From NCBI GenBank assembly GCA_029257335.1, contig JARIBV010000068.1, positions 55,998-119,997 of the forward strand: DNA of 64,000 nt, given 5' to 3'. How positions within the stretch are numbered: the first letter of the stretch is position 1; the number at the start of each line of letters is the position of its first letter. The DNA is from Faecousia sp. (GTDB taxonomy: Bacteria > Bacillota > Clostridia > Oscillospirales > Oscillospiraceae). This document shows positions 57,733-64,000 of this stretch, piece after piece. Made by a program: the position numbers and the translations under genes. The notes under the pieces are model-generated. The model worked only from the letters and a program-made list of their open reading frames with translations, did not search any database and was not told the origin of the DNA.

Positions 57733-58818
57733 TTACTTTTTCACCAGGTACTTTCTCATATCCAGGGCGCAGGCCACCAGAATGATGAGGCCCTTGATAA
57801 TATACTGTGTATTGGCATCAATGCCCAGCATATTGAGGGCAACAAAGATGATACGCAGAATGAATACGCCCAGGACGATCCCGCTGATCTTGCCGGTACC
57901 GCCTACAAAGGAGACACCGCCAATGACGCAGGCTGCAATGGCATCACATTCGGCATTGGCGCCGGTGGCCGCAGTAATGGAGCTGATTCTGGCACCCTCA
58001 ATGAAGCCGGTCAGGCCGTACATAACGCCGGCCAGAGTATGTACCAGCACGGTGGTTTTAAACACATTGACGCCGGAAACGTTGGCGGCTTCCGCATTGG
58101 AGCCAACCGCAAACATATTCTTGCCAAAGGTAGTCTTGTTCCACAGGAACCACATTCCGATCACCATAAGCACGGCATACAGCACATACCAGGGGATGGA
58201 TGCATCACCGATCTTGAACATGGTGCCGTTGACAAATTGTGTATAGCCCTTGTCCAGCTGGGAAAGGGGCTGACCATTGTTGTTATTCAGCATGAAAAAC
58301 AGAAGAATCAGGCCGTAAGTAATCAGCTGCGTGGCCAGGGTGACGATGAATGGATGGAGCTTATACTTTGCCACGAAGAAACCGTTGACCGCACCGATGA
58401 TGGCGCCCACAGCCATAACGGAAACAATGGCAATGATGATATATGCCCAGATCGGCAGCTCCGGCAGGAAGTTGAACAGTCGCTTTTGATAAGCAAAGTT
58501 CTGCAAAAATGCGGCAGAAATGGCAGCGCTGAGGCCCACCACTCGTCCGCCTGACAGGTCCGTACCTGTCAGCACAATACAGCCTGCAACACCCAAAGCA
58601 AAGGGCAGGGAGGCAGCAGCCAGAGAAATGATATTGGCAATGGAGCCGGCTTTCAGGAAATTCTCGTTGGCAATGGCCGTGTAGACAATAAAGATGATCA
58701 TAAGGATATACAGAGCATTGTTCAAAAGCCCGTCCACCCAGAAGCGGCGCTTATCCTTCTGATCCATCTGCTTATAGTTGTCACTGGTGGTTCTCAATTT
58801 TTGAATGGGGCTGACCAT
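57733..58818 (-). CDS. mglC: Galactose/methyl-galactoside ABC transporter permease
   Basis: Membrane subunit of a monosaccharide importer of the BPD_transp_2 (MglC/RbsC) type, 361 residues. About ten TM segments. Family blocks: LPFALGVAGCIVLTGTDLSGGRVVGLSA (about 91-118), VNGFFVAKYKLHPFIVTLATQ (about 163-184), and the late FAVGSNAEAANVSGVNVFKTTVLVHTLAGVMYGLTGFI and CDAIAACVIGGVSFVGGTGKI. It resembles Mgl rather than Rbs because of the IANENFL and LDKGYTQFVNGTMFK segments. The gene follows mglA by 14 bp. Confidence 0.92.
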   Translation of the reverse strand: MVSPIQKLRTTSDNYKQMDQKDKRRFWVDGLLNNALYILMIIFIVYTAIANENFLKAGSIANIISLAAASLPFALGVAGCIVLTGTDLSGGRVVGLSAAISAAFLQNFAYQKRLFNFLPELPIWAYIIIAIVSVMAVGAIIGAVNGFFVAKYKLHPFIVTLATQLITYGLILLFFMLNNNNGQPLSQLDKGYTQFVNGTMFKIGDASIPWYVLYAVLMVIGMWFLWNKTTFGKNMFAVGSNAEAANVSGVNVFKTTVLVHTLAGVMYGLTGFIEGARISSITAATGANAECDAIAACVIGGVSFVGGTGKISGIVLGVFILRIIFVALNMLGIDANTQYIIKGLIILVACALDMRKYLVKK

Positions 58819-58832
58819 GGGAAAGACCCTCC

Positions 58833-60329
58833 TTATACATATTTTGCAGCCAGGCTCATGATCTCTTCCTGACTGGTATTTTGCGCATTCACTTCACCAG
58901 CCACACGGCCGCCGGACATTACCACGATCCGGTCGCAGATTCCCAAAAGCTCCGGCATTTCGGAAGAAACCATCACAACGGTCTTTCCACTGTTTGCCAG
59001 ATCCAGAATGAGCTGGTAGATCTCATATTTTGCGCCTACATCAATGCCCCGGGTGGGCTCATCCAGAAGCAGAACCTCGGGATCTGTCAGCAGCCACCGG
59101 CCCAGAATCACCTTCTGCTGATTACCGCCGGACAGGCTGCGAATCTTGGTATCCTGGGTGGGAGTCTTGGTATGCATGGCATCAATGGACCACTGGGTAT
59201 CCTTCTTCATGGAGCTGTCACTCAGACAGACACCGCCGCGAAGATGCTTTTTAAGGCTGGAAATTACAGTATTGTCCCGGATATTCAGAATGGAGTAGAT
59301 GCCCGTGGAGCGACGCTCCTCTGTCAACAAGGCAAAGCCATTTTGGATGGATTCCCGGGAGTTTCGATTTCTGCAAACTTTACCGTCCAGCTTTACCGTG
59401 CCTTCCTTTCGGGTCATAATGCCGAAAATGCTTTCCAGCGTCTCTGTTCTGCCGCTGCCATCCAAGCCTGCCAGACCCAGGATCTCTCCTCTGCGGGCCT
59501 GAAAAGATACATCCTGCAGGTTGTTATACTGACCGGTCAGGTGCTCCACTTCCAGATACACATCTCCAGGCTTATTGGTCTTGGGAGGGAACTGGTTGGT
59601 GAGTTCACGGCCCACCATCAGACGAATAATGTCTGCCATGGAGAGCTTCTCCGTGGGCTCTGTTGCAATCCACTGGCCATCACGCATAATGGTGATTTCG
59701 TCAGAGATTCGCTTGATTTCCGCCATCTTGTGGGAGATATAAATGATGCCCACGCCCCGGTCCCGGAGCATATCAATAATTTTAAACAAGTGCTCTACTT
59801 CCTCCTCCGTCAATGACGAAGTAGGCTCATCGAACACAATCACTTTCGAATTATAAGAAACTGCCTTTGCAATTTCCACCATCTGTCTCTGAGACACCGG
59901 CATGGTGTTCATGATACGACGGGGGTCAATGTCGAGTCCCAGTTCTTCAAACACCTTTTTGGTATCCCGATACATCTTTTTTTCATCGATCATCAGGCCG
60001 GACTTGGGATATCGGCCCAGCCAGATATTATCCATTACAGAACGCTTCAGCGCCTGATTCAGCTCCTGATGCACCATGGCCACGCCATGGTCCAGAGCCT
60101 CCTTGCTATTTTTAAAGTGAATTTTCTGGTCTTCCAGGACAATGGTGCCACTGTCCATATTGTACATACCGAACAGACATTTCATCAAGGTAGACTTACC
60201 TGCTCCGTTTTCACCCATAAGTGCATGGACGGTACCACGCTTCAGCGTAAAGGAAACATTATCCAGAGCCTTCACGCCGGGAAATGTCTTGGTGACGCCT
60301 GTCATTTGCAGCAGAACTTCCTGTGACAT
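58833..60329 (-). CDS. mglA: Galactose/methyl-galactoside ABC transporter ATP-binding protein (two ABC domains)
   Basis: A 498-residue protein with two fused ABC domains. The first has a full Walker [10 protein letters not shown] (about 38-46), a Q-loop [11 protein letters not shown]-like signature [14 protein letters not shown] and Walker [17 protein letters not shown]. The second has a degenerate P-loop [13 protein letters not shown] (about 284-296) but keeps [15 protein letters not shown] (about 394-408) and [13 protein letters not shown]. This asymmetry is the family rule. ATG 60329 follows AAGGAGGAAGGAACG-like sequence. Galactose specificity is taken from the mglB partner and gene order. 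Confidence 0.94.
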
Positions 60330-60358: not shown

Positions 60359-60395
60359 GAAAAAAGGGAAGCTGCCGCCAAAACGACAGCTTCCC
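60359..60395 (-). terminator. Attenuator-like hairpin between mglB and mglA
   Basis: On the minus strand GGGAAGCTGTCG pairs with GGCAGCTTCCC, followed by TTTTTT. It lies in the 95-bp gap between mglB and mglA. A partial terminator there would keep the binding protein in excess over the membrane and ATPase subunits. Confidence 0.7.
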
Positions 60396-60424: not shown

Positions 60425-61624
60425 TTATTCAGCTTCTCCGGTGTAGGGAGCGTAAGCAACAAACAGCTTGTTGTTCAGATCTTTTGCTACGGAGTAGATG
60501 TCGCCCTTTTCAGCAGCGGCAGCAACTGCCTCAGGCATCGCCTTGCCTTCTCCCAGAGCCAGAGCGGTAGAAGCAATGGCGGAAGCCATGCCCTTTGCAT
60601 CCTGCTTGACGGTGCCGGTCATCTTGCCCTGTGCAATCAGAGCCTGTGCAGAATCGGTTGCGTCAACGCCGAACACGGGGATGGTCTTGGTGCCTTCGCC
60701 GTTGTTGTAACCGGCCACATTCAGAGCAGAGATGCAGCCTTCTGCCATGTTGTCGTTGTTGCAGATGATGAGCTCGATCATGTTCTTGTTGGTCTCGTTG
60801 TACTGTGCCAGGTTGGTGTTCATGTACTCCATGGCAGCGCTTGCAGACCATGCGCCGGCCATATCCACCTGATAGCCGGTGGTGTTCTTGGAATCGAAGT
60901 ACTGCATAGCGGGCTTGCCGGCCCCAGTCAGAATTGCATTTGCATCCTCAACGCCATACTGGGTACGGTAGATGGCCTCGGGGTTGGACTCGTCGCCCTT
61001 GAACATTGCGTAAGAGATCACCCCGTCGCCGTTGAGATCGATAGCATTATAGTTCTCCAGAACATACTCGCCAACCAGCTTGCCCTGCAGGTGGCCTGCC
61101 TCGGGAGCATCGGTGCCGATGAAGCAGATGTTCTTATAGGCACCCAGAACGGTACCGGCTGCATCCTCGTCCTCAATGGCACGGTTAAAGAAGATAACGG
61201 GCACATCTCCGGCAATCTCCATGATGGCCTTAGCGGTATCGGAAGAGTTGGAAGTAACCATGTTGACAATCAGCAGGTTGTAGCCGTCAGTAACAGCAGT
61301 CTGAATCTGCTCGTTCTGTGTGGCCTGGACATTGTTGCCGTCAAAGTCACGGTAAGTAACGCCGGCACTTTCCAGCTCTGCATCCAGAGCGGAACGGACG
61401 CTGGAAATATATACATCGGCGTAGCTGTAATAGAAAACGCCAACATTCAGATTGGTGGCCTGGGTGGTGCCGCTCCCCTCGGTATTCTCGCTGCCCTTGG
61501 TTTCCCCGGTGGACTGGGTTGTATTCTTGGTGCTTTCGTCGGTGCCATTTTTCCCTTCACCGCAGCCCGCAAACAGGCAGGCAATCAACGTAAAGGAAAG
61601 AAGCAGTGCAATGAGTTTCTTCAT
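60425..61624 (-). CDS. mglB: Galactose/methyl-galactoside ABC transporter substrate-binding lipoprotein
   Basis: A 399-residue periplasmic-binding type I protein that captures galactose or a related sugar. The signal peptide ends LFAGC (lipidated Cys21), then a Ser/Thr/Glu linker to about 50. The core begins [27 protein letters not shown] (about 55-80) and contains [63 protein letters not shown] and [14 protein letters not shown], all typical of MglB. The start is the ATG at 61624 after GGAGGA, five codons inside a longer open frame. Specificity is inferred. Confidence 0.92.
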
Positions 61625-61801
61625 TTTGAGTTCCTCCAATTTATAATCTTGCGGGGGCTCCCTTGGCTCCCCTCAGTGATTACAATTTTATCAGGAATCA
61701 AGAAAAACTCCATTGATTATCTTTAGATATTAGTTAAAATTTTTACTCATTTCCACTATGTATATAAAAATTTTCCTCATAAAATTATGCATATTGCACA
61801 A

Positions 61802-62764
61802 TTACCAAAAAGGAAACAGTACCTTTTGACTTTCTGTGGTAAACATATTATCCTTTGTCACCACGGTCGTGGAGGTGTTGATCAGGGTCTCCGGGGAATA
61901 GAGTTTGCCTTGCAATATCTTGTATGCTGCCTCTACGCCCAGATAGCCCATGGCATAGGGGTTCTGAACCAGCAATGCCGAAACCTCTCCGGTCTGGAGG
62001 TAGTCAATGCATTGCACATGGGCATCGAACCCGATCAGATGCACCTGGTCTTCCAGATCACAGACATCCACAGCCCGGGCCGCTCCCACTGCCAGAGGCT
62101 CATTGAGGGCCAGCAGAACATTCAGATCCGGATGCTTTTGCAGCAGAATTTCGGTTTGGGCCCGGGCCGCTTCCGGAGAAGTCAGCACATTGACCGTGAC
62201 GATCTGTTCCACTCTGGGATCTTTCTCCAGCACCTCCCGCAGGCCTGTTTCCCGCTCCTCTCCATTTCGGCTCACCACAGAATAATTGATAATACCGATC
62301 CGAAGCTTTGGCTCTTCCAGGTCGAGAACCGCCTCCGCGGCCATGTGTCCGGCCTCGATATTGTCCGTTCCAACCCGAACGGATACCGCCCGAGAGTCCA
62401 CATCACTGTCAATGACTACAATCTTCACCCCTTTGGAAGCTGCGTAGTCAATGGCCTTGGCATTTTCTTCGTAACTGATGGCGGAAAAAACAATGGCATC
62501 TGCTCCCTGGGCCACGGCTTCCTCTATATAATGGTTCTGTGCCATAAAATCTTCTTCTGTCTCAGGCCCCCGAATGGTCAGGGCCAGGTTATACTCTGCC
62601 TTTGCGGCGTTGGCCCCTGCAAAAGAGGCCTTCCAGAACTCGGACTCTGTGGATTTTGCAATGAGCCACACAGAAGGCCGCTCCTTGCTGTCGCTGTCGG
62701 CGCAGCCGTTCAGACACAAAAGACTGCACAACAGCAATACCAGAAGCCCTTTAAATCTTTTCAT
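61802..62764 (-). CDS. Second sugar-binding lipoprotein, likely sensor partner of the kinase
   Basis: A 320-residue periplasmic-binding type I lipoprotein. The lipobox is CLNGC (lipidated Cys21). The core has WLIAKSTESEFWKASFAGANAAKAEY (about 33-58), VAQGADAIVFSAISYEENAKAIDYAASKGVKIVVIDSDV, GTDNIEAGHMAAEAV, LALNEPLAVGAARAV and VHLIGFDA, as in RbsB/YtfQ/MglB-like sugar-binding proteins. It has no own permease; its ATG at 62764 (after GGGAGG) overlaps the upstream kinase by 14 bp. This is the order of SBP-plus-kinase sensor units such as XylFII-LytS, so signalling rather than uptake is the preferred role (inference). Confidence 0.85.
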   Translation of the reverse strand: MKRFKGLLVLLLCSLLCLNGCADSDSKERPSVWLIAKSTESEFWKASFAGANAAKAEYNLALTIRGPETEEDFMAQNHYIEEAVAQGADAIVFSAISYEENAKAIDYAASKGVKIVVIDSDVDSRAVSVRVGTDNIEAGHMAAEAVLDLEEPKLRIGIINYSVVSRNGEERETGLREVLEKDPRVEQIVTVNVLTSPEAARAQTEILLQKHPDLNVLLALNEPLAVGAARAVDVCDLEDQVHLIGFDAHVQCIDYLQTGEVSALLVQNPYAMGYLGVEAAYKILQGKLYSPETLINTSTTVVTKDNMFTTESQKVLFPFW

Positions 62765-64000
62765 ACTGCGCTGCCTCCCGGACCTTTGGCATTCGGATGT
62801 AGACTCTGGTTCCCTCGTCGGGAGCACTGTCGATGGTAATGCCGTATGAATTGCCAAAGTAAATTTTCAGACGGTCATTGACATTCTTAATGCCGATGCC
62901 CGTGTGGTCGCTGCGCTCCTTGGACAAAATGGCCTGCACCGTCTCCGGCTCCATTCCGGCTCCGTTGTCCTCCACTAAAAACAGCAGGTCCTCTCCCTCC
63001 TCTTTCAGGCTGATGACGATTTCTCCCTCCTCTACCAGACCGTTAATGCCATGATAGATCGCATTTTCGATGATGGGCTGCAAAGTAATCTTGTTGCACA
63101 GGTAGTCCAGGCAGCTTTCCTCCACATCAAAGCGATAGGAAAACTGGTTTTTATATCGGTACGCCTGAATTTCCAGATAACTCTGCGCATGCATCAGCTC
63201 ACTGCGAATGGGAATCAGCTCATGTCCCCGGCTGATACTGATACGAAAAAGTCTGGCCAGGGCATTCACCATCTTCACTGCGTCCCCGGTTTTCCCCCGT
63301 TCGCACATCCAGGAAATGGAATCCAGGGTATTATAAAGAAAATGGGGATTGATCTGGGCCTGCAGCGCCTTTAATTCCGTTTTTCGCAGGTTGATTTCTT
63401 CGCTTCTCACCTGTTCCATCAGTTTTTGGATTCTTCCCACCATATGATGGAAGGAATCTGACAGGGCCACAATTTCTCTGGCGCCTCCTACAGGCTGATA
63501 AACAAAATGATCCGCATCCGCCTCAAACTGGCCCATGGCACCAGACAGCTCCCGGACGGGTCTGGAAAGCGCCCGGGAGAGAAAAAAGCCGATCAAAAGA
63601 GCAAACAGCGCAATCAGTACCGCTGTTACCCCCATAATTTCCGATATATCCCGAACACTGTCATCAATCAGCTCATCCACAAAACTCACACCTACCACAC
63701 GCCACCTGCAGTTATTCAGGCTCCGCACGGTGTAAATGACATTTTCCTTTACCATGCTGCCATCCATTTGCCGGGCAATAAACTCCGTATCTTCCGTTTT
63801 CAGGCTGGAATAAATCAGCTGCTGCTGCGGGTGATAGATCATATTTCCCTTTTCATCCATCAGAAAGCAGTAGCCATGCTGCCCGATTCCCACCCCACTG
63901 ATATACTCGGAAATACTGCTGAAGCTGATGTCCAGCCCGATCCATCGGTTCTTTTCTTGCAGGGGAGCGGTCATGGTGACCACCCAGGGATATTCCCCTT
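62751..64000 (-). CDS. LytS/YesM-type sensor histidine kinase (N-terminus beyond the window)
   Basis: The C-terminal 416 or so residues of a membrane kinase; it is open to the window's right edge. Part of an extracellular Cache-like sensor domain (GQHGYCFLMDEKGNMIYHPQQ) is followed by a TM (ITAVLIALFALLIGFFLSRAL-like segment near ISEIMGVTAVLIALFALLIGFFLS), a HAMP-like linker and the His_kinase domain: INPHFLYNTLDSISWM (phospho-histidine) and an HATPase_c with LLFLVEDNGAGM, TGIGIKNVNDRLKIYFG and EGTRVYIRMPKV. It overlaps the sugar-binding gene. A response regulator (YesN-like) would be expected upstream, outside the window. Confidence 0.9.
   Translation of the reverse strand, partial: GEYPWVVTMTAPLQEKNRWIGLDISFSSISEYISGVGIGQHGYCFLMDEKGNMIYHPQQQLIYSSLKTEDTEFIARQMDGSMVKENVIYTVRSLNNCRWRVVGVSFVDELIDDSVRDISEIMGVTAVLIALFALLIGFFLSRALSRPVRELSGAMGQFEADADHFVYQPVGGAREIVALSDSFHHMVGRIQKLMEQVRSEEINLRKTELKALQAQINPHFLYNTLDSISWMCERGKTGDAVKMVNALARLFRISISRGHELIPIRSELMHAQSYLEIQAYRYKNQFSYRFDVEESCLDYLCNKITLQPIIENAIYHGINGLVEEGEIVISLKEEGEDLLFLVEDNGAGMEPETVQAILSKERSDHTGIGIKNVNDRLKIYFGNSYGITIDSAPDEGTRVYIRMPKVREAAQYEKI

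Follow-up and report, generated by a model that had tools for sequence, protein, structure and literature searches.

The 64,000-nucleotide stretch of Faecousia sp. DNA analyzed here (hereinafter, the window) ends within a locus that continues on a second contig and, when the two contigs (C90 and C24) are combined, has the order galETK, transcribed in one direction, and RR-HK-SBP-mglB-mglA-mglC, transcribed in the other. The response regulator (RR), the sensor kinase (HK) and the sugar-binding lipoprotein (sensor SBP) very likely constitute a three-component sensor of a hexose, most likely galactose, that would act on the mglBAC importer and probably on galKTE.

All five genes in the window part of the locus are on the minus strand. 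The kinase is represented by the C-terminal 415 amino acids of a YesM-type protein (62751..63998) that include the end of a dCache domain, TM2, HAMP, His_kinase and HATPase. The next gene encodes a type I sugar-binding lipoprotein of 320 amino acids (61802..62764; ATG at 62764), and its start codon lies within an overlap with the end of the kinase gene, stop codon TAA, of exactly 14 bp (62751-62764). The gap between this gene and mglB (61640..61801) is likely to hold the mglB promoter and contains a leader hairpin; in relatives, it includes a conserved block. It is followed by genes for an mglB-like galactose/glucose transport SBP, also a lipoprotein (60425..61624; ATG at 61624), an mglA-like ATPase (58833..60329) and an mglC-like permease (57733..58818). 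The best NCBIfam matches of the three importer subunits are Mgl proteins, at scores below the equivalog cut-offs (796.8 bits against 828 for MglA, 331 against 386 for MglC and 153 against 420 for MglB). A terminator-like hairpin between mglB and mglA (60366..60395; 13-pair stem, T6) probably keeps the output of mglB above that of mglA and mglC. The initial annotation had pointed to the 14-bp overlap, to the adjacent mgl importer (61624-57733) and to an SBP without a permease of its own, and all three points hold, mglC being the sole permease gene that accompanies the SBP.

The window ends where contig C24 ends, with the kinase reading frame still open and cut by the assembly. When the kinase and regulator from an orthologous locus were used as queries against this genome, the N-terminal 160 residues of the kinase were located at the end of C90, running off the contig, directly downstream of a YesN-like RR of 524 amino acids (G000:C90:15330-16904; Response_reg and AraC HTH domains; start codon TTG, inferred from the position of the ribosome-binding site and from orthologues). 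The composite kinase has about 564 amino acids, compared with 569-574 in orthologues. On C90, galE, galT and galK lie on one strand, and the RR and kinase N-terminus are divergent from them. The initial annotation had placed a YesN-like regulator upstream of the kinase, outside the window; inspection of the upstream genes did find it there, as in relatives, although the window end turned out to be also a contig end, so that in this genome the linkage of the RR to the kinase crosses the contig break.

Orthologues of the sensor SBP, with 39-62% identity, occur in genera other than Faecousia within the same family and order. In these relatives, the kinase gene is directly upstream of the SBP gene and is itself preceded by a YesN-like RR, and most have an mgl-type importer after the SBP. 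The RR-HK-SBP trio is present in 20 of the 20 orthologous loci with an SBP identity of at least 39%, one of which (L065) shows only the C-terminus of the RR. Within the genus, by contrast, MglB was detected in 21 of the 60 sampled congeners and an orthologue of the sensor SBP in none of the 60 (best identity 22-31%), which indicates that mgl can work without it. The distribution of the trio thus is patchy, with either gain in this lineage or loss elsewhere, because it is missing from these 60 congeners and the RR, HK and SBP are all missing from the eight congener mgl loci that were inspected. Some congeners carry tandem SBP domains in apparently single long ORFs, of 896 amino acids (L007, L019 and L022; G059:C61:12169-14706) and of about 640-676 amino acids (L005 and L018; G048:C209).

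The importer that accompanies the trio comes in two versions, a near one (mglA identity 74-82%) in this genome and in L065, L075, L077, L078, L084, L085 and L087, and a distant one (mglA 50-53%) in the remaining loci, including L086. The latter has an SBP and kinase close to those described here (60 and 66% identity) but an mglA of only 50% identity, whereas L087, in which the SBP and kinase are equally close, has an mglA of 80% identity; in L080-L082 and L088, the orthologues adjoin other transporters. Accordingly, across the orthologous loci, pairwise distances for the SBP correlate with those for the kinase as tightly as mglA does with mglC (r = 0.983 in each case), compared with 0.606 for SBP-mglA, 0.606 for HK-mglA and 0.686 for SBP-mglC, values that serve as a comparison rather than as a test of significance because related sequences are not independent. 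Given that the SBP and kinase diverge in step with each other and not with the importer, and that the trio adjoins two mgl-type importers, the SBP belongs to the kinase, and the sensor trio stayed together while the importers were exchanged. The distant version of mglC, 551-553 amino acids long, carries an N-terminal extension of about 200 amino acids before the permease domain (L064, L066, L067, L069, L073, L074 and L086).

This reading has to be weighed against three alternatives. It would have to be revised if C90 came from another strain or species and the kinase had a different upstream neighbor, and indeed the last 37 nucleotides of C90 match the end of C24 at 34 positions, with three mismatches, so that the two contigs apparently do not represent one haplotype. 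Nevertheless, the genome contains exactly one N-terminal and one C-terminal kinase half, both at contig ends, the overlap encodes the same protein on both contigs (GEYPWVVTMTA across the join), and the RR-HK-SBP order is the same in relatives. A wrong join is, accordingly, highly improbable, and we infer, on strong sequence grounds, that the two contigs belong together; the mismatches suggest a strain mixture, in which strain variation broke the assembly. Also unlikely, if less so, is an accessory transport role in which the SBP delivers substrate to the Mgl permease while the kinase senses something through its own dCache domain. Many receptors use the dCache fold to bind ligands, and the SBP gene lies just upstream of mglB, but the operon already has mglB as its transport SBP, congeners run mglBAC without the sensor SBP, and one and the same SBP-HK pair is combined with different importers. 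A transport role was rejected because the divergence of the SBP tracks that of the kinase and not that of the permease, so that the SBP is not a stray transport protein.

More room has to be left, although the odds are still clearly against it, for the same three-component sensor responding to a different signal, namely, glucose, allose, a pentose or a galactoside, with mglBAC serving as a broad hexose importer. In NCBIfam, the SBP scores best against the D-allose binding protein, although its 77.5 bits fall well short of the 335-bit cut-off, and some orthologues, as noted above, are next to other transporters. The SBP (Peripla_BP_4, 1.3e-49 in Pfam), with its lipoprotein-type signal (..LLCLNGC), retains F15, D89, R141, N190, D215 and Q235 of what we take to be the RbsB sugar pocket, and has W in place of F16 and K in place of S9, which is presumably the state of the allose-binding protein. 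Judging from the sequence, such an intact pocket should bind a sugar, with no indication of which one. Against a different sugar stands the gene context: galK, galE, galT and, in some cases, galM lie within about 10 kb of the trio in 9 of the 21 loci, in three arrangements, namely, divergent upstream of the trio in this genome, downstream of mglC in L064, L066, L067, L069, L071 and L076, and upstream on the same strand in L077 and L079. In the other 12 loci, no gal genes were found within the flanks covered. The recurrence of the Leloir genes next to the trio in different arrangements points to galactose as the signal and, by gene context, galactose is the most likely ligand of the SBP, possibly along with glucose or methyl-galactoside. 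Right after the SBP stop codon, a TGCACAA-like element (61780-61801, minus strand) recurs in most loci; the copy in this genome is an inverted repeat, TTGTGCA-ATA-TGCATAA.

The kinase has the layout TM1-dCache-TM2-HAMP followed by the catalytic part, with Pfam matches to dCache_1 (partial), HAMP, His_kinase (PF06580) and HATPase_c; the H box (NPHFLYNTLDS), N box and G box are all present. The outer domain is predicted to be a dCache domain by the agreement of several methods: dCache_1 is detected in the intact kinase of L084 (4.6e-10, below the Pfam gathering score), the PDB sequence matches agree, the AF2 model, built from a six-sequence alignment, has this fold (pLDDT 70), and the top Foldseek matches are dCache or tandem Cache receptors. 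Downstream of the only other YesM-type kinase of this genome (L035; G000:C117:3-3620) come a YesN-like regulator and a lipoprotein-like ORF, and this set may form another sugar sensor.

A near-consensus promoter (TTGACA-17-TATGAT; one such match compared with 0.6 expected) precedes the RR gene. The putative mglB promoter, examined by eye, has the -10 element TAAAAT at 61690-61685 and no good -35, as expected of an activated promoter. Inspection of relatives, again by eye, showed conservation of a block that covers the -35 and the sequence immediately before it, whereas the flanks of the block are not conserved. A motif derived from this block in relatives did not recover the mglB and galK promoters of this genome in a scan of the window and C90, and direct repeats of 21-24 bp seen by eye were significant against shuffled sequences in a few relatives but not in this genome. 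Regulation of mglB and galK by the RR is plausible, and the gene order, together with the promoter block conserved in relatives, suggests that the RR may control mglBAC. The original proposal that the unit senses a sugar and controls mglBAC gains from the identification of the RR, the SBP-kinase co-divergence and the gal neighbors with regard to sensing. In the mglB leader, the predicted start is closely followed by a hairpin that varies in sequence (about 61650-61671 in the window, minus strand), located in the same place in most of L064-L087, with a mean z of -2.2 in relatives compared with -0.4 upstream; RNAalifold yielded no consensus for these leader hairpins, as the stems did not align. 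This structure may be an mRNA-stabilizing stem.

Around the observed gene order, domain composition, co-divergence and conservation, we infer a scheme for the ligand, docking, phosphotransfer and promoter targets. The lipid-anchored SBP would bind an external hexose, most likely galactose, and would dock on the kinase at its dCache outer domain, altering the kinase's phosphorylation of the YesN-like, AraC-type regulator. The latter would then activate the weak mglB promoter, turning on the mglBAC importer, and probably also galKTE, transcribed in the opposite direction; for the trio, transcription from its own near-consensus promoter is probable. More speculatively, and with rather low confidence, the trio could be a transferable module in which an RbsB-like lipoprotein signals through a dCache-YesM kinase and which is re-used with different Mgl-type importers, with the dCache domain perhaps adding a second, directly sensed input. 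Uncultured gut bacteria of the Oscillospiraceae type likely possess a sensor of external galactose that ties an importer to the Leloir genes, and an SBP-kinase pair can remain linked through a change of importer.

The system is best seen as a well-supported addition to the SBP-dependent three-component sensors, a kind already known. Among the papers within reach of our literature search, which fell short of the Geobacillus Gan papers, none describes a galactose three-component system with mglBAC. Among solved structures, the sensor SBP is similar to 6gq0 (1.2e-44), which, with 6gt9 and 6guq, we take to be Geobacillus GanP, a glucose/galactose-binding protein, to the arabinose-binding protein 6sw4 (2.7e-36) and to XylFII (5xsj/5xss; 6.5e-36 against the profile); XylFII is not the nearest SBP. 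XylFII-LytS-YesN, the xylose sensor of Clostridium beijerinckii, likewise combines an orphan SBP of type I with a kinase of class I and a regulator of the YesN/AraC type that controls a CUT2 importer. Of the initial annotation modeled on it, the logic of an SBP, kinase and RR near an importer stands but the geometry does not: the outer domain of LytS is a four-helix bundle (PMC9769921), whereas Pfam, AF2 and Foldseek all indicate a dCache domain in this kinase, and the neighbors, mglBAC and galKTE, hint at galactose rather than xylose. AraPST of Geobacillus, too, combines an SBP, kinase and AraC-type RR beside a CUT2 importer in the arabinose cluster (PMC4428132, Table 6), with a different gene order and sugar. 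In the cellobiose system CuaDSR of Ruminiclostridium cellulolyticum, a second lipoprotein SBP again adjoins a kinase of class I and a regulator of the YesN/AraC type; CuaD binds CuaS and the regulator induces the importer operon (PMC10384115), but CuaD is larger (410 amino acids mature) and binds a disaccharide, and its importer belongs to a kind other than Mgl. In Vibrio, an RbsB-like SBP, LuxP, is likewise paired with a kinase, LuxQ, the outer domain of which has a tandem PAS/Cache-type fold. LuxP contacts this outer domain (PMC6321045); LuxQ, however, responds to autoinducer-2 and is a hybrid kinase of the phosphorelay type, whereas the kinase described here is of the YesM type, works with an AraC-type regulator and ends after HATPase, without a receiver domain. 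Because the outer domain is a predicted dCache, LuxP-LuxQ is the likelier geometric analogue, and the SBP probably docks on the kinase in a manner closer to LuxPQ than to XylFII-LytS, which suggests that YesM-type sensors have more than the one docking mode seen in the XylFII-LytS structure.
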